A stretch of 53,396 bases of DNA from a bacterium (lineage in GTDB: Bacteria; Chloroflexota; Dormibacteria; Dormibacterales; Dormibacteraceae): positions 1 through 53,396 of the forward strand of contig SCQL01000035.1 of the NCBI GenBank assembly GCA_004299235.1, written 5' to 3'. Made by a program: the position numbers and the translations under genes. This document shows positions 4,482 to 41,309 of this stretch, one piece after another; the stretch's first letter is position 1; each line of letters begins with the position of its first letter. The notes under the pieces were generated by a model. That model was not told the DNA's origin, searched no databases, and saw nothing but the letters and a program-made list of their open reading frames with translations.

Positions 4482-7400
4482 TCAGGGGCGGACTCGTGCG
4501 GGAACCGTGAACTTGAAGGTCGTCCCCCTGCGGTCGCTCGAGGCGACCCAGATGCGACCGCCGAACGAGCGCTCGACCACCAGCCGGCACAGGTAGAGCC
4601 CAAGGCCCAGGCCGCCCTGTGATCGGCTGCGGCCTGCCGGTCCTGTCTTCTCGAACAGGCTGTCCAGGCCCGCGGCCGGAAGCCCCTGGCCGCGGTCGGC
4701 CACCGTGATCTCGAGCCAGCCGCGCTGCGCCAGGCGGGCCTCGACCATCACCGGCTCGGAGGTGTACTCGAGAGCGTTGCCGATCAGGTTGGTGAGCACC
4801 TGCCCGAGATGAGCCGGCTCGCAGAACGCCGCGGGCAGATCGGGCGGGAGACTGACCTCGACCGCGGCCGACCGTTCCGCGTAGCGGTGCTGGAGGATGC
4901 TCATCACACCGTCGACGGCCGGCCCGAGATCGACCGGCTCCGGGCTCGGCTCGAAGTGGCGCGTCTCGAGCTTGGCGATGATCAGCTGGCTCTCGACCAG
5001 GCTGAGCAACCGGTCGGACGACTCGTAGGCCTCCTGCAGGAGCTCGCGGCGGCCGGTCGCGTCGATGGTGCTGTCCCATTGCATCATGCCCGCCAGCGTG
5101 TTCTTCATCGCCGCCGCCGGACTGCGGACCTCGTGGCCGATGGCGCGAAGCATCAGGTCTTTGGCTTCGAGCGCCAGGCGCTGCGCGGTCACGTCCTCGT
5201 GCAGCGTGAGGATGCCCGCGGGCTCGCCCTCCAGTCCAGGAATGACGACGCGGCGCACGTGGACCGTGCGGTCCGGGTCGTGCATGCGCAGCTCGAGGGT
5301 CCCGTCGGACTCGCCCTCCTCGTTCGGAACGGCGCCGGCGGCGGCGTAGATCTCCGCCGGTTTCCGGCCCGGCATCTCAGCCGCCCGCAGGCTGTAGATC
5401 GACTCGACCTCGGGATTGGCGTACACGATCCGGCCGGCCGCGTCTTCCAGCATCACGCCAACCGGCGAATGGCGGAGGATCGCGTTCATCATCCGCCGCT
5501 CGCGGTCCAGGGCGTCGACCAGCTCGAGCTGGCCGATGAGCACCGCGGCCTGGCCGGCCAGGACCGCGGCCAGGCGCCTGGTCTCGGCGGCGCCGCCGGT
5601 CATCCGCGCCACCAGCAGGCCGGCTAATCGCCCCTCGACCTGGATCGGAATGGCGAAGGCATCGGGGGGAGCGCCGAGCAGGTCGAGGAGAGCTCGGAGC
5701 CGCCGGCCGCCGGCCGGCGAGGCCAGCGCGCGCAGCAGCTGCTCGCCGTCGGCGACCGGGACCCTCGGCACCGCCTCTCCATCGTCCGAGCGGCGTACCA
5801 GCTGGCCGTCCTCGAGCAGCCAGAGCTCACCCTGCGAGCCGGCGAGCGCGCGGCGGACCAACCGCGCCATCTCCGAGCGCGCGCGGTCCGGCTCGGTGGG
5901 GGTGAGCTGGGTGAACGCGGCCACGGCCTCCAACGTGCGGATGCGCCCGCGCGTCTCCGCGACCAGCCGGGAGTTCTCGATCGCGACGGCCGCGTGGCGC
6001 GCGAAGTCCAGGGCCGCGGAGCTGGGTTCGGCCAGATGCGTCGAAGCGTGGACCGAACCGATCGCGCCGACGAGGCGGTCGCCATACCAGAGCGGGATCA
6101 GGCTCCAGGCCTGGCCGTCCGCGGTGCCGCTCATGAGCCCCGCGGGCGCGTCGCGCCAGCTGTCCTCCGAGCTCAGGCCGGACCATGAGAAGACTTCTTG
6201 GGCCGCCGGGTCGCCGCTGCCTCGGGTGGCGCTGATTCGACCCTCGGTGTCGAACGCCCAGCAGACCGCGCCCGCGCACTCGAGCATCGTCCTGGCCTGG
6301 TCGGCGATGTTCGCGACCACGCTCATGAGCTCGTGGCCGGCGAGCGCCGCGAGCTCCTGGATGCGGACGGACTGGGCCAGCGCCAGCTCGTTGGCGTGGT
6401 GGAGGCGCATCGTGCGCAGCGCAATGCCGACCACCGGCGCGGCGGCTTCGAGCAGTTTGAGACGCGCCTGCAGGATCCGGCGACCGTCGTTGCGCATCGC
6501 CATCACGCCGGCGACCACGCGCTCATCCTGGGCGATCGGGACCCACACCACGTGGCTCGGAGCGTCCGAGAAGATGTAGCTGCCGATCGGCCCGGCGAGG
6601 TCCTCACCGCCGGCCGCTTCGGCCTCCAGCACGGTCCCCGGCCGCTCGATCAACCGGCGGAAGAAAGGCTCCTCGGCGATCGGCACGGGGCCGACGGCAG
6701 CCGTCTCACCTCCGCGCTCGGCCGCAAAGGCGGCCACGTTGCCGGCCACGTCCAGGTAGGCGAGGACCATGCGCGTCGCCTCCAGGTAATCGCTGACCAC
6801 GGAGAAGATCGCCTCGGCGATCTGGCGCTCGTCGGACGCCCCGGCCACGCCCATCTCCAGCAGGTGGAGCGCTTCGAGTCGCGCCCGCTCCGCCTGCGCC
6901 TCGCTGAAGTTGTCCGCATTGGCGAGCGCCAGGCTCACGTGCGCGGCGACGTCCTGGAGCAGCTTCACGTGCCAGTCGTCGAACGCGCTTTCGCTATATG
7001 ACTGCAGGGACAGCATGGCGGTGATTCGCTCCCCGCTCAGCACCGGCACCCACAGGAACGAACGTGAGACGAGGCGGCGGTCGGTCCCAGGGCCGGAGAC
7101 GAAGACGGCGGCGCCCCGACCCACCGTCCACTGCTCGCGCTGCAGGTCTTTATGGTCGAAGGTGCGCGCCCACGGGGAGTTGCGAACCAGCACCGGCCGG
7201 CCGGTCTCGTACGCCTCACGGGAGGGCCCCGTCACGGCCAGGGCCACCGGGGGCACGACCTCCTCGATGCCGCCCACGTGCTGGTAGCCCTCGGCGACCG
7301 GCCCGTCGGCGGTCTGGGTGATGGTGGCGAGGATGAAGCCGTCGAAGCTGAGGAAGGAGGCCAGCTCCTCGCGCAGCGTCCGCATGATCGACCAGCGGTC

Positions 7401-8507
7401 CAGGCTCGAAGCGAGCCGGCGACCGATGGAGTTGACCACCTCGAGGCGGCGCCTCTGATCCTCGATGGCCTCGTAGCTGCGCGCGTTCCGCAGCGCGAGC
7501 GTGACCTCGTCGGACACCAGTTCCATGAAGGCGGCCGTCGACGCTTCATAGACGTACGGCTTCGAGGCTGTGATGCCGAGGGCGCCGCGCACCACGCCGC
7601 CTTCCTTGACCGGGACCCAGAGCGACGAGTTCGGTTCATGGGTGAGGCGGGGAGTCGAATCACGCACCACCAAGCGCGCTTGGGCGAGTTGTGGTGAGCG
7701 CATCGAGACCCCAAGCGAGGTCGGCTCCGAATCGGCTTCGACGTGAAGCAGGCGCGCCTGGTCGGCCTGGTCGCCCGGCATCGAGACCAGCTCCAGGCTG
7801 TCGACCGGCAGGAGCTCGCTGAGGGTCGTCTGCAGCGCCACCAGGACGCTCGCCTCGTCCAGGGTCGAGGCCATCGCCCGGGCGATGCTGTTGAGCGCAC
7901 CGAGTCGCCGCGCCTGGTTGCGCGTGAGCTCGTTGAGCGAAGCGTTGGCGATCAGGATCCCGAGGCTGCGATGGACCTCCTCGAGGAACGCGACCTCCGT
8001 CGGCGCCACGCGGCGGTTGCGATACGCCTGGTAGATGACGCTGCCGATGACCTCCCCCTGGTGCTCGACCGGGATCCAGATCGCAAACTTGGTGTCGCGC
8101 CCGGCCCCCGGGCCCTTGCTCATCTCCTGTCGCTTGGGGTCGAGGGGAATGACGGTGCTGCGCGGGCTCGCGTACTGGCGAGCGAACACCGAACCGCTGA
8201 GCGGGCGCCGGCGGAGATCCTGAAGGACGCCGGAGTCCATGGTCAGCGAGTGATACCAACCCTCGCGCTCCAGCACGTGCAGGTTGACGACGTCGTATCC
8301 GAAAAGGGGATGGAGTCCGCGGTACAGGACCTGGACGATGTCGGCTTCGGTGACGCAGCTCCCGAGCTCGTGCGCGACCGCCGCCGGCGTCAACGTGTTC
8401 GACCGCCGGGCGGCGACCGGCCTGACCGGCCGGCCCCCGGGTGCCGGGCTCTCCGGCGCCCTGGACCGTGCGCTGCGCCTAACGTGCCGCGGGCCGGGGC
8501 TGGGCAT
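4482..8507 (-). CDS. Multi-GAF/PAS hybrid-free sensor histidine kinase
   Basis: About 1340 residues, a very large cytoplasmic sensor kinase. I see six successive GAF-like domains (about 45-195, 205-345, 365-545, 555-710, 720-860, 870-985), a PAS domain (about 990-1105, NAILRHSPVGVMLEDAAG, VYANPEVESIY), a HisKA domain with phosphoacceptor in GHEVRSP, and an HATPase domain with N box NLIGNALEYT, G1 DRGQGLP and G2 GGLGLGLYLC. All catalytic boxes are intact. There are no membrane segments, so it reads internal signals. The start is ATG 8507 (GTG 8513 also possible). It is divergent from a single-domain response regulator whose -10 region it shares; that regulator or the REC-wHTH protein at 9215 is the likely partner. 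Ligands of the GAF domains are unknown. Confidence 0.9.
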   Translation of the reverse strand: MPSPGPRHVRRSARSRAPESPAPGGRPVRPVAARRSNTLTPAAVAHELGSCVTEADIVQVLYRGLHPLFGYDVVNLHVLEREGWYHSLTMDSGVLQDLRRRPLSGSVFARQYASPRSTVIPLDPKRQEMSKGPGAGRDTKFAIWIPVEHQGEVIGSVIYQAYRNRRVAPTEVAFLEEVHRSLGILIANASLNELTRNQARRLGALNSIARAMASTLDEASVLVALQTTLSELLPVDSLELVSMPGDQADQARLLHVEADSEPTSLGVSMRSPQLAQARLVVRDSTPRLTHEPNSSLWVPVKEGGVVRGALGITASKPYVYEASTAAFMELVSDEVTLALRNARSYEAIEDQRRRLEVVNSIGRRLASSLDRWSIMRTLREELASFLSFDGFILATITQTADGPVAEGYQHVGGIEEVVPPVALAVTGPSREAYETGRPVLVRNSPWARTFDHKDLQREQWTVGRGAAVFVSGPGTDRRLVSRSFLWVPVLSGERITAMLSLQSYSESAFDDWHVKLLQDVAAHVSLALANADNFSEAQAERARLEALHLLEMGVAGASDERQIAEAIFSVVSDYLEATRMVLAYLDVAGNVAAFAAERGGETAAVGPVPIAEEPFFRRLIERPGTVLEAEAAGGEDLAGPIGSYIFSDAPSHVVWVPIAQDERVVAGVMAMRNDGRRILQARLKLLEAAAPVVGIALRTMRLHHANELALAQSVRIQELAALAGHELMSVVANIADQARTMLECAGAVCWAFDTEGRISATRGSGDPAAQEVFSWSGLSSEDSWRDAPAGLMSGTADGQAWSLIPLWYGDRLVGAIGSVHASTHLAEPSSAALDFARHAAVAIENSRLVAETRGRIRTLEAVAAFTQLTPTEPDRARSEMARLVRRALAGSQGELWLLEDGQLVRRSDDGEAVPRVPVADGEQLLRALASPAGGRRLRALLDLLGAPPDAFAIPIQVEGRLAGLLVARMTGGAAETRRLAAVLAGQAAVLIGQLELVDALDRERRMMNAILRHSPVGVMLEDAAGRIVYANPEVESIYSLRAAEMPGRKPAEIYAAAGAVPNEEGESDGTLELRMHDPDRTVHVRRVVIPGLEGEPAGILTLHEDVTAQRLALEAKDLMLRAIGHEVRSPAAAMKNTLAGMMQWDSTIDATGRRELLQEAYESSDRLLSLVESQLIIAKLETRHFEPSPEPVDLGPAVDGVMSILQHRYAERSAAVEVSLPPDLPAAFCEPAHLGQVLTNLIGNALEYTSEPVMVEARLAQRGWLEITVADRGQGLPAAGLDSLFEKTGPAGRSRSQGGLGLGLYLCRLVVERSFGGRIWVASSDRRGTTFKFTVPARVRP

Positions 8508-8515
8508 TGCCACCG

Positions 8516-8521
8516 ATATAC
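8516..8521. promoter_or_regulatory. Shared divergent -10 region of kinase and response regulator
   Basis: TATACT on the plus strand and AGTATAT on the minus strand occupy the same bases. On the minus strand it lies 8 bases before the kinase ATG (8507), on the plus strand 15 bases before the regulator TTG (8537). The two transcripts would compete for the same core promoter bases. No convincing -35 was found. Confidence 0.4.
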
Positions 8522-8536
8522 TGCGCCACGAACCCC

Positions 8537-8971
8537 TTGCCGTTCACCCCGCCGAAACCGATCGCACCGACGCCGAAAGAGCTGCGCGGCTCCACGGTCC
8601 TCGTGGTCGACGATGAGCGTGCTTGGCGCGTGATCCTGGAGACCGATCTACGCATGCTCGGCTACAAGGTCTCGATGGCCGAGGATGCCGACCAGGCGCT
8701 CGAGCGCGCCCAGTCCGACAGCCCGGATGTCGCCATCATCGACCTGATGCTGCCCGAGCCGATGGACGGGTGGGGCCTGTTGAACGAATTGCGCGCGCGC
8801 GGGCAGAAGGTGCCGGTCATCTTCTACACCGCGTACCCCGTCTTCCCCTCCGGGACCGATGACCCGGACGTGGTCGGCTACATGAGCAAGGCGGTCGACC
8901 GCGCCGACCTGTATGCGCTGTTGCCGGCGGCGATCCGGCGCTCGCGGGAGCGCCGGATTGATGGTTCCTAG
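8537..8971 (+). CDS. Single-domain response regulator (REC only)
   Basis: A receiver domain with no output domain. The acidic pair is in VLVVDDERAW, the phosphoacceptor aspartate in VAIIDLMLPEPMDGWG, the conserved Thr in FYTAYP and the Lys in YMSKAVDR, so phosphorylation chemistry looks intact. A 20-residue proline-rich leader precedes the domain. I start at TTG 8537, giving 144 residues; TTG 8507 is in frame but would overlap the proposed -10. It is divergent from the large GAF histidine kinase, its probable phosphodonor. Such stand-alone receivers act through protein contacts, as phosphate sinks or as relay proteins. Confidence 0.8.
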   Translation: MPFTPPKPIAPTPKELRGSTVLVVDDERAWRVILETDLRMLGYKVSMAEDADQALERAQSDSPDVAIIDLMLPEPMDGWGLLNELRARGQKVPVIFYTAYPVFPSGTDDPDVVGYMSKAVDRADLYALLPAAIRRSRERRIDGS

Positions 8972-9214: not shown

Positions 9215-10018
9215 TTGGAAAATCCGAGCCCTAAGGGCGGATCGAGAGCCCATTCCCGAAATCGTGATCTGCGGCTGCCGCCGCTGCCGCCCGGCCTGGA
9301 GGTCTACCGTCCGGCCGACGTCCTCGGTTCGTCGGTGCTGGTGGTCGAAGACGAGGCGGCGATGCGGCAGCAGCTTCGCATCGACCTGCACGACCTCGGC
9401 TACCAACCCTCCACCTCGGCCTCCGCCCCCGAGGCCCGGCAACTCCTGGAGCGAGAGCGGGTCGCCGCCGTGCTCCTCGACCTGGTCCTGGACGAAAGCG
9501 AGGACTCTGGGTTCGAGCTGCTCAAGTGGATCCGCCACCACCATCCCGGCCTGCCGGTCATCGTGCTGTCGGCGGCGCAGGTCAACTCGGCGGCCATCCG
9601 CAAGGCCTACGAGCTGGGCGCGAGCTCCTACTTCGTCAAGGGCAACGTGCCCATGGCCCACATCTACTCCGACCTGGCGGCGCGCCTGGTCGAGCGGGGC
9701 ACCGGCCGCCCCGGCAGCTACCGGTTCGGCCGCCTGGAGTTCGATCCGACCCGCCGGACGGTGAAACTTGGGCCCGAGGAGATCCACCTGACCCAGCAGC
9801 AAACCGCGCTGGTCCTGCACCTCGCCCAGGGTTCCAAGCCGGCGACCGCTCGCGACCTCATCGAAGCGGGCCTGTTCCAAAGCCACGCCGCCCACTCGAC
9901 CGTGCATTCGGCGCTGCTGACCTTGAGGCGCCGGCTGGACGAGCTGGAGCCCGGCCTGGGTCCGAGCTTCGTCAGAGCGTCCGCGCGCGGATACGGCCTG
10001 GCTCCCGTGCATGACTGA
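9215..10018 (+). CDS. OmpR-type response regulator (REC plus winged helix)
   Basis: The receiver domain occupies about residues 38-155 (VLVVEDEAAM acidic pair, AVLLDLVLDESEDSG phosphoacceptor, VLSAAQ switch residue, YFVKGN lysine). The last 95 residues form an OmpR/PhoB winged helix (YRFGRLEFDPTRRTVKLG, LTQQQTALVLHLA, VHSALLTLRRRLDELE, VRASARGYGL). Start TTG 9215, with AGGA about nine bases upstream and an A/T-rich block (9191-9203) that may hold the -10. Its stop overlaps the ATG of the M20 amidohydrolase by 8 bases, so it is probably first gene of the envelope operon that follows and may regulate it. The large GAF kinase is the nearest kinase. Confidence 0.88.
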   Translation: MENPSPKGGSRAHSRNRDLRLPPLPPGLEVYRPADVLGSSVLVVEDEAAMRQQLRIDLHDLGYQPSTSASAPEARQLLERERVAAVLLDLVLDESEDSGFELLKWIRHHHPGLPVIVLSAAQVNSAAIRKAYELGASSYFVKGNVPMAHIYSDLAARLVERGTGRPGSYRFGRLEFDPTRRTVKLGPEEIHLTQQQTALVLHLAQGSKPATARDLIEAGLFQSHAAHSTVHSALLTLRRRLDELEPGLGPSFVRASARGYGLAPVHD

Positions 10019-11201: not shown

Positions 11202-11774
11202 GTGCTACTGCTGGGGGTTGTCCTAGTCGGTCTTGGCGCCGGCATCGCCACCGGCGGGCGGATCGGCAACCTGGCCAACATGAGATTTCGCTGGCCGTTC
11301 TTCGTCCTGGCCGTGCTGTTGATCAGAGAGGCCGCCGTCACCAGCCCGCTCAACCGCGTCGAGGGCGTCCAGTACGTCTATACCCTGTCGCTGGCGGGCC
11401 TCGTCGGCTGGACCGTCTGGCACTTCGGTCGCCTGCCGGGCGTGTGGCTCGTGACGGCTGGAGCCGCGATGAACCTCATCGCCGTCATCGCCAACGGCGG
11501 CCGGATGCCGGTATCACTCGAGCTCGCGGGGCGCGGCTCGCACCTCCTCGTCGACCGCGGAGTGGTGGGTCAGTACGTGCTCATGGGCCCCGACACGCAC
11601 CTCAACTGGCTCGCCGACTGGATCGGCCTTCCGGGCCCGCTGGTCGACGCCTACAGCCCGGGGGACCTGCTCGTGGCCGTGGGCGTCGCGCTCGTGGCTT
11701 TCCACGCCACCCGGCGGCGTCCCGAGCCCGAGCTCGGCGAAACCTCTCGACGTATAGTGAGTGACCCTCCGTGA
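11202..11774 (+). CDS. DUF5317 integral membrane protein
   Basis: 190 residues with four to five hydrophobic segments (about 1-18, 30-45, 55-72, 78-96, 152-167). It matches DUF5317, a membrane family of unknown function, in the segments NRVEGVQYVYTLSLAG, NLIAVIANGGRMPVS, GQYVLMGPDTHLNWLAD and PSPGDLL-like YSPGDLLVAVGVA. Start GTG 11202, six bases after the amidohydrolase stop. The stop overlaps the GTG of the FtsH-like gene (GTGA), so the two are translationally coupled and may form a membrane complex. Confidence 0.8.
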   Translation: MLLLGVVLVGLGAGIATGGRIGNLANMRFRWPFFVLAVLLIREAAVTSPLNRVEGVQYVYTLSLAGLVGWTVWHFGRLPGVWLVTAGAAMNLIAVIANGGRMPVSLELAGRGSHLLVDRGVVGQYVLMGPDTHLNWLADWIGLPGPLVDAYSPGDLLVAVGVALVAFHATRRRPEPELGETSRRIVSDPP

Positions 11775-13879
11775 TCATCTTCTGGATCTTCACGCTGTTC
11801 GTCGGCAGTTCGGCCTTCGCCTTCGCCTATATCTACCTGCAGCTCGGCATCGCCTGGTCGATCGGGTACTCGGTGCTCGCGATGCTCGTCTGCCGCGGCC
11901 TGCTCACCATCGTGCGGCGCTGGCTGATCCTGACCGAGCGCATGTCGCCGGAGGCGAGCCAGCAGGAGAGGACCGTCGAGACGAACCGCGCCATCTTCTG
12001 GCGCCGCATCCTCTGGATCGCGATCCTGCTCGGCGCCTACTTCGGCGGCGCATATCAGTTCTACGCGCTGCAACCGGCCGACGCCCTCGACGCGCTTCCC
12101 CAGTTCCTGCTGGCGCTGGTCACGCAGCTCGCGTATCTGTTCGCGCTGATGCTGGCGAACTTCATGCTCTTTTTCGGCCCGATGCTCCTTTACTCGCGCA
12201 TGGGTCGCGAGACGATCGAGCCGGGGGACGCCAACTTCGACGTCAAGATCGAGGACGTCCGCGGCCAGAAGGCGGCGGTCGGCGAGATGATGCGCATGCT
12301 CAGGCTCATCGAGCAGGGGCGCAACTACGTGCAGGCCGGCGGCAAGCGAGAACGCGGCGTGCTCATGGTCGGACCGCCGGGCACCGGGAAGACGATGCTC
12401 GCCAAGGCGATCGCATCGACCCTGCACGTGCCCATCGTCGTCACCTCGGGCGCCGCTTTCGCCGGCATGTTCATCGGCATGGACGTGCTCGGGGTTTTCA
12501 TGATGGTGCGCACGGCCAAGGCCAAGGCGAAGCGCTGGGGCGGCTGCGCCATCTTCATCGACGAGTTCGACGCGCTGGGCAACCGCCGCGGCGGGATGGG
12601 TGGTGGCGGCGGGCCGATGGGCGGCCTGGGCGGAATGCTCGGCGGCGGCCAGATGGGTCTGAACATGCTGCTCGTGCAGATGGACGGCGTGGACAACCCT
12701 GGCTTCTTCAAGAAGCTGGTGCGGCGAATGGTCAACGTGACCCTCGACGGGCTGTTCCTGCCACGCGTGGTCGCGTTCAACGGGACGCGAATTCCCCTCC
12801 GCCTCCCCCAGCTGCGTCCGCCCCGCTACAACATCTTTTTCATGGGGGCCACGAACCGGCCCTCCGTCCTCGACGAAGCGGTCACGCGCCCGGGACGCTT
12901 CGGCCGCACGATCACCTTTCGCATCCCCACGCGCGAGAGTCGCAAGGACATCGCGGCGCTCTACTTCGACAAGAAGGCGCACGACCCCGACCTCGACTCG
13001 GCCGAGCGGCGTGACGAGTTCGCGCGCATCACCGAGGGCTATTCGCCGGCGATGATCGAGCAGGCCCTTTCGCTCGCCCTGGTCTATGCGTTCGAAGACG
13101 GCCGCAAGGCGTTCGCCTGGAAGGACATGCGCGAGGCGATGGGCAACATCGAAGCCGGCCTGGCGGAGCCGGTGGAGTACACCGAGCGGGACAAGGTCGC
13201 GGTCGCGCGCCACGAGCTCGGCCACGCCGTCGCCGCCCGCTTCTACGAGTCCGACCGCAGCTCGGTCCGTCTCTCCATCCGGATGCGCTCGGGCTCGCTC
13301 GGTCACCACTACAACGTCCCGAAGGAGGAGCAGTTCGTCCGCTTCCGCTCGCAGCTCGCGGGGCGATTGCGTTCGGGCCTGGGGGCGATCGCCGCCGAGC
13401 GCGTCTTCTACGGTGAGAACTCTTCGGGCGTGAGCATGGACCTGATCCAGACCACCAGCACGGCGGCACACATGGTCGGCGTGTACGGCATGGGACCCGA
13501 GCCGCTGGAGCCTCAGCTGTCCCGCAAGGCGGCCGACATCGGCGAGTACCTCATCTCACAGGTCGAGGCGATGCAGCAGTTGCAGGATCCCGACCCGGCC
13601 GCCGCCGTGCTGCGCAACCCGCATGCACGCCGCTCGGTGGCGCAGGTGATGGGCGCCGCCTACATCGACGCCTGGCGGCTCATGTACACCAACCGTGAAG
13701 CCATCGACCTCGCGGCGGAGGCCCTGATGGCACAGGGCGAGCTGGTCGGCGACGAGGTCGACGGCCTGCTCGACTCGGTCGGGCTGCACCCGGTGGACGA
13801 GAGCGTCCCCTACCCGGAGGACGCGCCCGCCGTGCCCACGGTCCCCGGCCGGCCGGCGATCGCGGCGGAGTCGGCCTGA
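11771..13879 (+). CDS. Divergent FtsH-like AAA+ zinc metalloprotease
   Basis: 702 residues. Hydrophobic segments cluster in the first 140 residues (about 2-50, 77-97, 112-140), more than the two of classical FtsH and without its usual extracytoplasmic domain. The AAA+ module has Walker A GPPGTGKT (201-208), Walker B CAIFIDEFDAL (259-269) and a sensor/second-region block (FFMGATNRPSVLDEAVTRPG). Between Walker B and that block is an insertion of about 75 residues, glycine/methionine-rich (272-298) and then basic. The peptidase part has HELGH (481-485) and a candidate third zinc ligand D557 in SSGVSMDLIQ, so proteolysis seems intact. The proline-rich acidic C-terminus is extra. Probable role: membrane-protein quality control. 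Confidence 0.88.
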   Translation: MIIFWIFTLFVGSSAFAFAYIYLQLGIAWSIGYSVLAMLVCRGLLTIVRRWLILTERMSPEASQQERTVETNRAIFWRRILWIAILLGAYFGGAYQFYALQPADALDALPQFLLALVTQLAYLFALMLANFMLFFGPMLLYSRMGRETIEPGDANFDVKIEDVRGQKAAVGEMMRMLRLIEQGRNYVQAGGKRERGVLMVGPPGTGKTMLAKAIASTLHVPIVVTSGAAFAGMFIGMDVLGVFMMVRTAKAKAKRWGGCAIFIDEFDALGNRRGGMGGGGGPMGGLGGMLGGGQMGLNMLLVQMDGVDNPGFFKKLVRRMVNVTLDGLFLPRVVAFNGTRIPLRLPQLRPPRYNIFFMGATNRPSVLDEAVTRPGRFGRTITFRIPTRESRKDIAALYFDKKAHDPDLDSAERRDEFARITEGYSPAMIEQALSLALVYAFEDGRKAFAWKDMREAMGNIEAGLAEPVEYTERDKVAVARHELGHAVAARFYESDRSSVRLSIRMRSGSLGHHYNVPKEEQFVRFRSQLAGRLRSGLGAIAAERVFYGENSSGVSMDLIQTTSTAAHMVGVYGMGPEPLEPQLSRKAADIGEYLISQVEAMQQLQDPDPAAAVLRNPHARRSVAQVMGAAYIDAWRLMYTNREAIDLAAEALMAQGELVGDEVDGLLDSVGLHPVDESVPYPEDAPAVPTVPGRPAIAAESA

Positions 13880-14715
13880 TTCGAGTCGCAGCCGCGGCGG
13901 TGGTCGCGGTGCTCCTGGCGGCGCCCGCGCGCGCGGTCGAGGCGCAGGATCCGGGCACGGCCCCCAACGCGCACCACGAAGCCGCGCGCATCGTCGCCGC
14001 CGAGCTGGCGATGACCCAGGCCTCGAGCCGGATGCAGGCCATCGCGGCGCAGCAGCCCTCGAGCGTCATCGACGGCTTACGCAAGGAGCTGGCGATGGAA
14101 GACGCGGCATACGCCTATCGCGCCGCGGCGCGGCAGGAGGAGCTGAGGCTCTACGAGCTGGCGGGTTACGCGAGCGTGGAGGCGGCCGTGGAGCCGCTGC
14201 TGCCGCCTGACGTGGCCGCGCCGTTCCAGGATTCCATCGCGGCGCTGCATTCGCTGTACGCCCTCGCGGGCATCGATCAGTACTACCTGGTCAACGTCCA
14301 TTTCATCCATCCCTACACGGACGCCAGGCCGGTGAGCGCGCTGCGCTCGTATTACCTCGAGGCGCAGCAGCGGTACGGCGTGGATGCGAGCTACCTCGCC
14401 TCCATCAACTTCATCGAGAGCAACTTCGGACGGGTCAACGGGCCGTCGTCGGCGGGCGCCCTTGGACCGATGCAGTTCCTACCCGGCACGTGGGCTGGCT
14501 ATGGCGAGGGTGGGAACGTGAACGACCCGCACGACGCCATCCTGGCCGCCGCCCGCTACCTGGTCCACTACGGCGCTCCGTATAACATGCGCCAGGCCAT
14601 CTGGCACTACAACCTCGACTACGACTACGTTGACGCGGTGGAGTTCTTCGCCCGCGCCTTCCGCGCTGATCCCACGTGGCTCGACCACATGTATTACTGG
14701 AACACCTACGGATGA
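13876..14715 (+). CDS. Secreted lytic transglycosylase (SLT/GH23-like)
   Basis: C-terminal 110 residues form a goose-lysozyme-like transglycosylase domain: catalytic glutamate in NFIESNFGR, then GALGPMQFLPGTW and the AARYLVHYGAP block. It should cleave peptidoglycan glycan strands outside the membrane. The middle (about 30-130) is helical and alanine-rich. The first GTG (13900) would remove the basic part of the signal peptide; starting at CTG 13876 gives IRVAAAAVVAVLLAAPARA, a proper signal sequence, with GGAG five bases upstream and a CTGA overlap with the protease stop. ATT 13879 is another choice. It belongs to the same operon as the FtsH-like and HtrA-like proteases. Confidence 0.83.
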   Translation: MIRVAAAAVVAVLLAAPARAVEAQDPGTAPNAHHEAARIVAAELAMTQASSRMQAIAAQQPSSVIDGLRKELAMEDAAYAYRAAARQEELRLYELAGYASVEAAVEPLLPPDVAAPFQDSIAALHSLYALAGIDQYYLVNVHFIHPYTDARPVSALRSYYLEAQQRYGVDASYLASINFIESNFGRVNGPSSAGALGPMQFLPGTWAGYGEGGNVNDPHDAILAAARYLVHYGAPYNMRQAIWHYNLDYDYVDAVEFFARAFRADPTWLDHMYYWNTYG

Positions 14716-14719
14716 GCCG

Positions 14720-15832
14720 ATGAGAGCCTTGCGCCTGATCGCTCCCGTGCTGGCGCTCTTGCTCGCCGGCGCCTGCACCATCCATCCGATGGGCAGCGCT
14801 CGCCCGTCGCCGAGCCCAAGTCCGAGCGGGACCCCCATCAGCATCCCCGTCGTCAGCCCGGCTCCGATCCCCGCGTCGGGAACGTTCGACCCCGCCCATG
14901 TGGTGCAGGTCCTCGGGCCCGCGGTCGCCGAGCTGATCGTCAGCAGGAATGGCGGCGGCGGCGGCATCGGCAGCGGCTTCGTGATCGCGCGGCAGAACGG
15001 CGTGAGCTACCTGGTGACCAACAACCACGTCGTCGCCGACGCCACCAGGGTCGTGGTGTTGATGCCGGACGGGCGCCACTTCACCGCCACGGTCCAGGGC
15101 ACCGACCCGATACAGGACATCGCCGTCGTCAAGGTGAGCGATGGGTCGCTGCCCCTGGCGCAGTTCGGCGACTCGACCAAGCTGGTCGCCGGCCAGCAGG
15201 TGGTCGCCATCGGCAGCCCCCTCGGCAACCAGAGCTCAGTCACGGCGGGCATCATCTCCGCACTTCACCGCAGCATCTCGGCCGGCGGCGGCGGCGGCAC
15301 GCCCGCCGAGGACCTGCCCGATGTGATGCAGACCGATGCCGCCATCAACCCGGGCAACTCCGGCGGCCCGCTGGCGGACGCCGGCGGCAACGTGATCGGA
15401 GTCAACACCGCCACCAATGCGGGCGGTCAGGGGATCGGCTACGCGATCCCCAGCCTCATCGCCAAGCGCATTGCCGAAGACCTGATCGCGGGACGCAAGC
15501 CCGGCCATCCGTACATCGGCGTCTGCTATCAGCCAGAGGACGCCTATCTCGCCGCCGGCAAGGACGTCCAGGGCTACGGCGTCCTGGTCACGACCGCGCT
15601 GCCCGGCACGCCCGCGGACAGGGCCGGGCTGCGCTCGGGTGACCTCATCGAGAAGGTCGATGGCGTCGACCTGATCAATGGCCAGACCCTGGGCGGGGCG
15701 ATCCAGCCCCACGGCCCCGGCGAAACCGTGCAGCTCACGGTCGCGCGGGGCGGCAGCACGACCACGATCCCGCTGACCCTGGGAGACCGCACCGCCGCCG
15801 CCGGCGCGGGCGCCTGCCCGACGACCCCCTGA
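14720..15832 (+). CDS. HtrA/DegP-like serine protease lipoprotein with PDZ domain
   Basis: 370 residues. The N-terminus is a lipoprotein signal peptide with lipobox LLAGAC, followed by a Pro/Ser linker. The trypsin-like domain has the catalytic His in TNNHVVAD, Asp in IQDIAVVKV and Ser in NPGNSGGPL, all intact. A PDZ domain fills the last 100 residues (YIGVCYQPEDAY, GTPADRAGLRSGDLIEKVDG). The frame stays open upstream, but ATG 14720, four bases after the transglycosylase stop, starts exactly at the signal peptide. It should act on misfolded envelope proteins, fitting the FtsH-like protease in the same operon. Confidence 0.92.
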   Translation: MRALRLIAPVLALLLAGACTIHPMGSARPSPSPSPSGTPISIPVVSPAPIPASGTFDPAHVVQVLGPAVAELIVSRNGGGGGIGSGFVIARQNGVSYLVTNNHVVADATRVVVLMPDGRHFTATVQGTDPIQDIAVVKVSDGSLPLAQFGDSTKLVAGQQVVAIGSPLGNQSSVTAGIISALHRSISAGGGGGTPAEDLPDVMQTDAAINPGNSGGPLADAGGNVIGVNTATNAGGQGIGYAIPSLIAKRIAEDLIAGRKPGHPYIGVCYQPEDAYLAAGKDVQGYGVLVTTALPGTPADRAGLRSGDLIEKVDGVDLINGQTLGGAIQPHGPGETVQLTVARGGSTTTIPLTLGDRTAAAGAGACPTTP

Positions 15833-39752: not shown

Positions 39753-39819
39753 AGGAGCAGCACCCAGGACGCATGGGCCCCTCGGCCGAGCCTTGGGCGG
39801 ACGGATCCATGTAACATCG

Positions 39820-39911
39820 GCTGCCAGCGGGAGCTCGCATGTAACGGGCTGAGAGGGCGCCAGCAGCGCCGACCGCATGAACCTGATCTGGGTAATGCCA
39901 GCGGAGGGAGA
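39820..39911 (+). promoter_or_regulatory. TPP riboswitch (THI element)
   Basis: The conserved THI-box parts are present in order: CTGAGAGG (39849-39856), a variable arm GGCGCC...GCGCC, ATGAACCTGATCTGG (39877-39891), GTAATGCCAGCGGAGGGA (39892-39909). The 3' strand GGAGGGAG is also the ribosome binding site of the transporter at 39915, so thiamine pyrophosphate binding should hide it and stop translation. TAACAT (39812-39817) may be the -10. CATGTAAC occurs twice (39808, 39838). No terminator hairpin with a U run is seen before the ATG. Confidence 0.93.
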
Positions 39912-39914
39912 ACG

Positions 39915-41309
39915 ATGAGCGATTTCGCTACGCCAGCGATTGCAACGGACGTCTTCGGCAAGGTCGAGAGCCGCGGCATCGACGCCATCCCGGCCGCCGA
40001 GCGGCACGGCGCGCCGCGTGAGCTCGCATTCCTCTGGGCCGGAGCGTTCGTCAACTACGCCAGCCTTTTCACCGCCAGCCTGCTGACGACCTATTACGGA
40101 CTGGGCGTGTGGGACGGCCTTTTGGCCGCCGCGCTGGGCACCGTCGCCGCGGCCGTGATCTTGGGCCTGCTCAGCAACACCGGGCCGCGGTCGGGGCTGC
40201 CGCAGATCATCTTCACGCGCAGCATCTTCGGCCGTCGCGGTTCCTATCTCGGGGCGGCGCTCACCCTGTTCCTGGCCATCGGCTGGTTCGCGGTCGATTG
40301 CGTGATCGCGGCGCAGGCCGGGGCGCAGCTCTTCGGCGGCGGCAACCGGCTCGTCACCTTCGGGCTGGTGATCCTGATCGCCGCGGTCAGCGTCGCGGTG
40401 GCGATCTTCGGCCACCAGACCATCAAGGTCTTGGAAACCTACGGCGCCGTCATTTTCGCGGTGCTGTCGGCCGCGCTGTTCGTCTTCCTCGCGCCGCAGT
40501 TCCACTGGGGCCAGGGACCGACCGCATCAGGCGCAGACCTGCCGGGCGCCTTCGTGCTCGGCTTCATGACCTGCTTCGCGCTGGTCGCGTCCTGGTACCC
40601 GTTCGCCAGCGATTATTCGCGCTACCTGCCGGCATCGAGCCCGGCGAGGTCGGTGACCTTGTGGCCGGTGGTCGGAGTCACGCTGCCGATGGTCCTGCTC
40701 GGACTGTTCGGCCTGCTGCTGCCGACGATCGACGCCAAGCTCGCCGCCGACCAGGGCGTGCTCGCGGTGATCAGCGCCCACGCACCGGCCTGGGTCGCCA
40801 TCCCGTTTTTCATCTTCGTCGTCGTGGGCGAGATCTGGGCCAACTACCTGGACGTGTACACCGCCGGCCTGGTCTCACTCGCGATGGGGATCAAGCTCGA
40901 GCGCTGGCAGACCGCCCTGGGCTGCGGCGTCCTCGGCACCGCGCTGGCCGCGTACGCGGTGCTCGTGAGCGACTTTCACCTCGCCTACGAGGATTTTCTG
41001 ATCCTCACGTACCTGTGGGCGCCCGCCTGGGCGGCGGTCGTGCTGCTGAGCTTCTTTGTTTTCGAAGGCCGGGCACGGCTTGGGCTCGGGCTGGCCGCCT
41101 GGCTGGCCGGGACGGCCGTCAGCCTGCTGTTCGTCAACTACGACAACCTGTTCAGCAACCTGGTCGCGAAGCCGAGCTTTTTCAACGAGGGACTGATCGC
41201 CGGCCTGCATGGCGCCGACGTCAGCGGCGTCATGAGCATCGCCGTGGCCGCCGCGCTGTATTGGGGCGGCCGCCGCATCCGGTTCGGGGAAGGCCGCGTG
41301 CGGCCGTGA
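39915..41309 (+). CDS. NCS1-family transporter, probably hydroxymethylpyrimidine uptake
   Basis: 464 residues with about twelve membrane segments. NCS1 (cytosine/purine permease) features: the acidic leader, WAGAFVNYASLFTASLL in segment 1, GPRSGLPQIIFTRSIFGRRG, GHQTIKVLETYGAV, WYPFASDYSRYLPA and NYLDVYTAGLVSLAMG. The TPP riboswitch in its leader and the overlapping thiD indicate uptake of a thiamine precursor, most likely the pyrimidine HMP (a CytX-like role). The stop overlaps the thiD GTG (GTGA). Confidence 0.9.
   Translation: MSDFATPAIATDVFGKVESRGIDAIPAAERHGAPRELAFLWAGAFVNYASLFTASLLTTYYGLGVWDGLLAAALGTVAAAVILGLLSNTGPRSGLPQIIFTRSIFGRRGSYLGAALTLFLAIGWFAVDCVIAAQAGAQLFGGGNRLVTFGLVILIAAVSVAVAIFGHQTIKVLETYGAVIFAVLSAALFVFLAPQFHWGQGPTASGADLPGAFVLGFMTCFALVASWYPFASDYSRYLPASSPARSVTLWPVVGVTLPMVLLGLFGLLLPTIDAKLAADQGVLAVISAHAPAWVAIPFFIFVVVGEIWANYLDVYTAGLVSLAMGIKLERWQTALGCGVLGTALAAYAVLVSDFHLAYEDFLILTYLWAPAWAAVVLLSFFVFEGRARLGLGLAAWLAGTAVSLLFVNYDNLFSNLVAKPSFFNEGLIAGLHGADVSGVMSIAVAAALYWGGRRIRFGEGRVRP

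Follow-up and report, generated by a model that had tools for sequence, protein, structure and literature searches.

In the mitochondrial m-AAA protease AFG3L2, a four-residue insertion in pore loop 2 contacts substrate, and in YME1L the motif DGF was assigned to inter-subunit signalling (both in excerpts of PMC12994072). The inter-subunit signalling motif itself is defined in a portion of PMC5415569, which also places the hairpin that defines the pre-sensor-1 (PS-I) superclade before sensor 1. Here we describe an FtsH-like gene, called FtsHL, in which these regions are rebuilt. It lies on contig SCQL01000035.1 (assembly GCA_004299235.1) of a bacterium of the family Dormibacteraceae, phylum Chloroflexota. 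Positions 1 to 53,396 of this contig are referred to as the window.

With a probability of about 0.6, we read FtsHL as a working, membrane-anchored, ring-forming, ATP-dependent zinc metalloprotease with the FtsH fold and a place in a divergent clade, here called long-loop. This reading draws on sequence and on a predicted structure.

The FtsHL protein and its rebuilt loops

The FtsHL reading frame starts with GTG and encodes 702 amino acids. AAA (PF00004, 85.4 bits) and Peptidase_M41 (PF01434, 82.9 bits) were both matched above the Pfam cut-offs, in the order AAA then M41. The best-matching models were those of classic-clade FtsH/PAN/CDC48. On the TIGR01241 equivalog model, FtsHL scored 248 bits and failed the 600-bit cut-off, whereas the canonical FtsH that the same genome also encodes (L001) scored 846.6 bits. 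A long-loop protein from outside the window's family (L162) scored 323.5 bits. An anti-phage role was considered; the PADLOC matches of FtsHL were generic AAA models, the best being IetA at 79.6 bits. The features of FtsHL are as follows.

11771..13879, + strand: FtsHL, FtsH-like AAA+ M41 protease, 702 amino acids, long-loop clade, four-helix form
11774..12199, + strand: N-terminal membrane region, residues 2-143, four predicted helices, without extracytoplasmic domain
12371..12394, + strand: Walker A GPPGTGKT, residues 201-208
12470..12478, + strand: pore loop 1 FIG, residues 234-236 (FVG in 59 of 63 canonical FtsHs)
12554..12565, + strand: Walker B FIDE, residues 262-265
12578..12658, + strand: Gly/Met-rich, acid-free pore loop 2, residues 270-296, in place of the canonical GGGHDEREQT-type loop
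12683..12691, + strand: signalling motif DGV, residues 305-307 (DGF in 63 of 63 canonical FtsHs)
12695..12829, + strand: basic insert at the pre-sensor-1 position, residues 309-353, with predicted helix 312-327 and hairpin 333-342
12887..12907, + strand: arginine-finger segment RPGRFGR, residues 373-379
13211..13225, + strand: zinc motif HELGH, residues 481-485
13439..13441, + strand: Asp557, at the third zinc-ligand position (115 of 115 proteins in the tree have Asp here)

Sequence and model agree that Walker A and B, pore loop 1, sensor 1, both arginine-finger arginines and three zinc ligands are intact. The Walker motifs, HELGH and candidate third ligand that the first-pass annotation had listed as retained were all located, and Asp557 aligns with the third-ligand Asp of the tree set. 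FtsHL thus carries HExxH and a third acidic zinc ligand, the marks of the FtsH superfamily in the broad sense. It fails three features of canonical FtsH (equivalog score, outer domain and DGF) and is therefore filed as a variant, not as FtsH. The first-pass view of an FtsH-like protease with an unusual architecture is supported.

Between Walker B and sensor 1, FtsHL exceeds canonical FtsH by about 50 residues, at two places. Pore loop 2 accounts for about 8, and a basic segment after the DG[V/I/L] inter-subunit signalling motif for about 42. Loop counts and the tree cover six proteins of the window's family (f1; that of the window and five others), four of a second family (f3), 42 of the wider clade and 63 canonical FtsHs; L139, whose frame is broken, was omitted, as were 16 of the 78 named loci, which lacked a single frame containing both motifs. 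Canonical FtsHs have a median of 26 residues from Walker B to the LN helix, compared with 34 for f1, 32 for f3 and 35 for the wider clade; between the MDG motif and sensor 1 the medians are 8, 50, 51 and 28 residues, respectively.

Pore loop 2 of f1 consists of 52% Gly, 15% Met and 0% Asp/Glu, compared with 26%, 1% and 17% in canonical FtsHs. In f1 and f3 together it has no acidic residue, is about half Gly and contains 15-25% Met. The signalling motif reads DGV, DGI or DGL in f1/f3 and DPP in 32 of the 42 wide-clade proteins. Both loop changes were found in all ten f1/f3 proteins and also in the 42 wide-clade proteins, where the second insert is shorter. In the Cellulomonas protein L033, pore loop 2 is not Gly/Met-rich and Walker B reads FIEE. 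Among 26 orthologues, with gaps ignored, mean modal frequency was 0.84 in pore loop 2, 0.70 in the insert and 0.73 in M41.

A single pore-facing insertion of 75 residues, Gly/Met-rich and then basic, had been proposed for this region. Its Gly/Met-rich part does fall at pore loop 2 by homology. The remainder needs revision, as there are two separate changes of about 50 residues in all and the larger, basic one sits at the signalling/pre-sensor-1 position. As to whether such an insertion is common in FtsH, none of the 63 canonical FtsHs compared shows the loop changes, which are present across a whole sister clade.

The N-terminus of FtsHL is also changed. Four long helices were predicted (2-22, 26-52, 64-98 and 102-142), whereas canonical FtsH has two, and no segment between them is big enough for a domain. 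PF06480 (FtsH_ext) was not matched in FtsHL, a weak test alone since the genome's own canonical FtsH scored 21.3 against a cut-off of 25.5. Hydropathy alone finds three membrane helices, because the third helix peaks at 1.45 and the threshold is 1.5. The missing extracytoplasmic domain and extra N-terminal membrane segments reported at first pass were thus confirmed, the latter as about four helices by prediction and three by hydropathy. In the wider clade, hydropathy gives two membrane helices in 37 of 42 proteins and one in a further protein; the count is 0 in four because Walker A is spelled differently there. The inter-helix loop is 7-17 residues in the eight wide-clade proteins for which it was printed, versus 81 in the genome's own canonical FtsH. 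The four-helix form was found in two families, f1 and f3.

The structure model of FtsHL comes from a second run with 62 sequences and a predicted local distance difference test score (pLDDT) of 80.7, which replaced a first run with 26 sequences and a pLDDT of 68.5. Model residues 156-671 match the FtsH structure 3kds_F (Z 26.7, root-mean-square deviation 3.8, 405 aligned), a fold match to be read with the caveat that the alignment behind the model itself contained canonical FtsHs. In the model, the additional residues form a helix and a hairpin, placed after helix 292-308 and before the sensor-1 strand (354-361). Hairpin 333-342 is predicted at moderate confidence.

The long-loop clade: range, conservation and loss

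According to PMC9020784, a tree by Shao et al. in 2018 defines three FtsH groups. In our tree, 52 long-loop proteins and 63 canonical proteins were split with a support of 1.0 and a branch of 1.02, and f1 and f3 formed a group with a support of 1.0 and a branch of 1.30. L033 was set apart from the other long-loop proteins with a support of only 0.785. The long-loop FtsH-like clade is monophyletic. FtsHL shares its Gly/Met-rich acid-free pore loop 2 and its insert at the pre-sensor-1 position, and falls within the monophyletic group. All 52 long-loop proteins in the tree carry the third-ligand Asp, the Thr-Asn of sensor 1 and HExxH.

The clade was searched for in the window's phylum (a sample of 251 genomes), in a scan of named genomes and in plasmid searches. 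A profile of eight long-loop proteins gave matches in 110 of the 251 genomes at E <= 1e-75. The match in G217 turned out to be canonical, which leaves the clade in about 109 genomes, counted by score; the loops were actually read in 40 fetched wide-clade loci, the f1/f3 loci, G234 and G266. Nearly all full-length long-loop matches scored above 500 bits and canonical proteins at most about 351 bits, the exception being a match of 394 bits in G226. Among the 80 matches listed in the named-genome scan, 62 were canonical FtsH, two were long-loop (L033, and L034 from a Chloroflexi bacterium) and 16 were unclassified.

The plasmid searches gave one clear long-loop member, in Thermomicrobium roseum; matches in Rhizobium lentis and Nonomuraea have canonical loops. 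The T. roseum protein (WP_012643090.1, labelled 'AAA family ATPase') comes from the cultured strain DSM 5159. NCBI places the species in the phylum Thermomicrobiota and GTDB places it in Chloroflexota. These named members, L034 and T. roseum, point to Chloroflexota as the phylum, as does the genome's own canonical FtsH: its best named match is the Chloroflexi sequence L105, and a second Chloroflexi sequence, L099, ranks fourth after one from Bacillota and one from Kazan. Searches of the open-licence literature of PubMed Central listed no title or abstract opening on the long-loop clade and no paper containing the word DUF5317, the family of an FtsHL neighbour. In f3, FtsHL ends in a CPRC...CLNC-type tail (L132-L135; L026, L027, L029, L030), and that of L026 scored 22.3 bits on Zn_Ribbon_1, below the cut-off of 25.

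FtsHL orthologues from other genera were aligned at 55-69% identity. The ratio of nonsynonymous to synonymous substitution rates (dN/dS, own NG86 script) was 0.04-0.18 in seven orthologue pairs, indicating purifying selection. Orthologues in other genera and low dN/dS mean that FtsHL is not a chance reading frame. Alignment A1 was built without the canonical L001, the window duplicates L002 and L003, L014 and L028, which contig ends cut short, and L031 and L032, whose frames are broken.

Among 37 f1 genomes, that of the window included, 23 had a match of at least 660 residues, 7 had a partial or split match and 7 had no subfamily-level match. In f3, five of 12 genomes had a match, one of them partial. 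No subfamily-level match was found in the 12 genomes of two other families of the class. Some f1 absences fall at contig ends (G008 and G033), and in G003 and G016 the close syntenic M20 gene is missing; G027, 71% complete, gave no M20 match. FtsHL frames were broken in two f1 loci from separate genomes (L139 and L140), by assembly error or decay.

Neighbouring genes

In the wider clade, a small membrane protein gene often precedes the long-loop gene. This family has no name and is called A4 here (L197, L203, L205 and others). Its members have a basic N-terminus, one membrane helix and a domain of about 110 residues, which the positive-inside rule predicts to lie outside the cell membrane. An A4 gene was directly upstream of the long-loop gene in 21 of 40 fetched loci outside f1/f3, in 15 families; these loci were hand-picked from the profile matches for spread over families. 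A phylum-wide A4 search gave 49 matches in 42 of the 251 genomes, and for 37 of the 49 the gene immediately following was a long-loop gene in the same orientation. Since 20 of those 37 had built the profile, the independent figure is 17 of 29. T. roseum has such a pair outside the A4 profile, with WP_012642861.1 ('hypothetical protein'; L246:5350-5970) before WP_012643090.1. Twenty A4 members compared with Pfam gave nothing below E 0.004 and no family common to two members, and comparison with PDB sequences gave nothing below E 0.27.

At the window itself, FtsHL has other neighbours.

11202..11774, + strand: DUF5317 membrane protein (PF17248, 81.3 bits), directly upstream of FtsHL
13876..14715, + strand: lytic-transglycosylase-like (SLT) protein, directly downstream of FtsHL
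14720-15832, + strand: HtrA/DegP-like serine protease with a PDZ domain, after SLT

The DUF5317 stop codon overlaps the GTG start of FtsHL. The gene listing places the start of SLT at 13900; the CTG at 13876 is our own reading. In 24 fetched f1 loci, the window not counted, M20 was upstream in 24 and DUF5317 directly upstream in 20. SLT was directly downstream in 23, the missing one being at a contig end, and HtrA was present in 2.

In the phylum sample, DUF5317 and FtsHL were adjacent in all seven f1 genomes having both. The overlapping genes and the 20 of 24 loci would fit a dedicated complex of the two proteins. Such a complex is nevertheless very improbable. Four of the 24 f1 loci have FtsHL with no DUF5317 at that place, and the f1 genomes G005 and G020 keep DUF5317 without an intact FtsHL. 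In the 251-genome sample, DUF5317 stood beside an FtsHL-type gene in 0 of 24 non-f1 genomes having both, although contig breaks could hide a case. Moreover, most f1 loci share a syntenic stretch that reaches from the histidine kinase to the men genes, so gene adjacency says little about function. The coupling to DUF5317 claimed by the first-pass annotation is a local gene order, found in most loci of the window's family and not conserved outside it, and each gene outlives loss of the other. By gene order, DUF5317 is a local neighbour, and as a conserved partner it was rejected outside f1. A4 is linked more widely than DUF5317 to long-loop genes of the wider clade.

Even less probable is a cell-wall remodelling unit of FtsHL with the downstream SLT and the nearby HtrA. 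SLT does follow FtsHL in nearly every f1 locus, but it is kept where FtsHL was lost, none of the four f3 loci gave an SLT relative by tblastn, and HtrA is rare in f1. The three genes as a functional unit are unsupported. In the f3 loci, a CPBP/Rce1-like membrane protein gene is directly upstream of FtsHL.

Elsewhere in the window, a histidine-kinase-like reading frame of 1343 amino acids (4482-8513, - strand, our reading) lies beside two response regulators (Pfam Response_reg; 8507-8971 and 9215-10018, both + strand), and all three are syntenic in most f1 loci. A TPP riboswitch (RF00059) was matched at 39817-39926 (+ strand) with 62.6 bits against a gathering threshold of 54.3.

Proposed mechanism and comparison with known systems

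Homology, conserved residues, loop positions, the monophyly of the clade and, in relatives, the linkage to A4 are shown by the data; activity, a hexamer, a pore collar, the role of the insert and an outer domain acting in trans are inferred. FtsHL would act from the cytoplasmic side, pulling out proteins that lie in the membrane or associate with it and degrading them. The Gly/Met-rich, acid-free pore loop 2 may form a hydrophobic and flexible collar, able to grip hydrophobic stretches with little preference for their sequence. By analogy, the collar could resemble the Gly-Met tails of GroEL. In the available parts of PMC11978752, these tails are proposed to bind clients, and in a complementation test altering their flexibility or hydrophobicity had the same effect as removing them. 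The basic insert might alter how the ATP state is passed between subunits, or brace pore loop 1. With the outer domain gone, the helix bundle would select substrates within the membrane. The separate single-pass A4 protein of the wider clade may stand in, in trans, for the lost outer domain; in the window's family, where A4 was undetected, the four-helix bundle may have taken over.

A broader proposal would make long-loop proteins a second class of membrane AAA+ metalloprotease, with the outer domain on a separate upstream subunit, a GroEL-tail-like Gly/Met pore collar and a convergent pre-sensor-1-type insert, and with the four-helix bundle replacing the subunit in the window's family. We advance it tentatively and hold it to be possible rather than probable.

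Several observations weigh against reading FtsHL as a working protease of this kind. Within the model core, confidence is lowest in pore loop 2 (pLDDT <50 at residues 275-290), and the orientation of this loop therefore rests on homology. The Cellulomonas protein has Glu in place of the Walker B Asp, and RPGRFDW occurs in 5 of 42 wide-clade proteins. In the G226 member (L249:261-1955, - strand), HAAGR stands where HExxH was lost, and the Walker B Glu and Gly/Met loop are gone as well. In its own family, FtsHL was deleted between intact neighbours in at least two genomes. In G005 no trace of it was found, and G020 keeps an in-place remnant (L243:4512-4742) with both ends left and the middle gone; SLT, like DUF5317, is kept in both. 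A4 was not detected in the window's genome (G000) or other f1/f3 genomes of the sample, nor in several other families, so this partner is not obligatory. Twelve of the 49 A4 matches were not next to any long-loop gene found by profile, and members of the A4 profile overlap with the matches counted, which makes the count partly circular. Finally, hhalign found no relation between the A4 domain and FtsH_ext (probability 0.3%), and the idea of a displaced FtsH_ext was rejected for lack of similarity.

An alternative is an ordinary lineage-specific FtsH paralogue in general membrane quality control, in which the altered loops and the missing outer domain are drift that was tolerated and give no mechanism of its own. 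FtsHL is dispensable in some relatives, its catalytic core and fold are FtsH-like, and its genome keeps a canonical FtsH. Against it stand both loop changes, in every f1/f3 protein and in the 42 wide-clade proteins compared, their conservation among orthologues, and a linked partner gene in 15 families. We consider this explanation somewhat unlikely.

A motor without proteolysis, which would unfold or extract proteins as the FtsHi/Ycf2 complex does, is improbable. FtsHi1 (8xku_E, Z 24.6) was among the good structural matches of the FtsHL model, and the G226 relative, an apparently inactive form that retains the second insert and adjoins its A4 partner, means that inactive forms do arise. However, the intact HExxH and third Asp of FtsHL and the long-loop tree set argue for proteolysis. 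In Arabidopsis, by contrast, four of five FtsHi proteins have no HEXXH and the zinc site is missing in FtsHi3 (PMC9020784, in the part available).

If this reading of FtsHL holds, an FtsH-type protease would be able to lose its outer domain or to have it as a separate subunit. Pore loop 2 and the signalling loop, rebuilt together, would then be a natural experiment on the gripping of membrane proteins. The gene pair of the cultured T. roseum strain makes direct testing possible.

Compared with canonical bacterial FtsH (TIGR01241, M41), FtsHL has in common the AAA and M41 order, Walker A and B, an aromatic-x-Gly pore loop 1, the TN of sensor 1, arginine fingers, HExxH, the third Asp and the FtsH fold. 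It differs in that the outer domain is lacking, the helices number about four rather than two, DGF is replaced by DGV/I/L, pore loop 2 is rebuilt and about 42 residues are added before sensor 1. FtsHL, a predicted membrane AAA+ metalloprotease, resembles AFG3L2 in that pore loop 2 is enlarged; in AFG3L2 this loop touches substrate. The AFG3L2 loop is enlarged by four residues and places a Phe at the substrate, whereas that of FtsHL is longer and Gly/Met-rich (for AFG3L2, excerpts of PMC12994072). With the PS-I superclade (ClpX, HslU, Lon and others) FtsHL shares an insert before sensor 1, which in FtsHL is predicted, at moderate confidence, to contain a hairpin. FtsHL matches classic-clade models best, however, and its insert is modelled as a helix plus a hairpin; we take the likeness as positional and convergent. 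Like the members of the FtsHi/Ycf2 motor complex, FtsHL is a divergent FtsH relative with altered architecture, but it keeps the zinc site.

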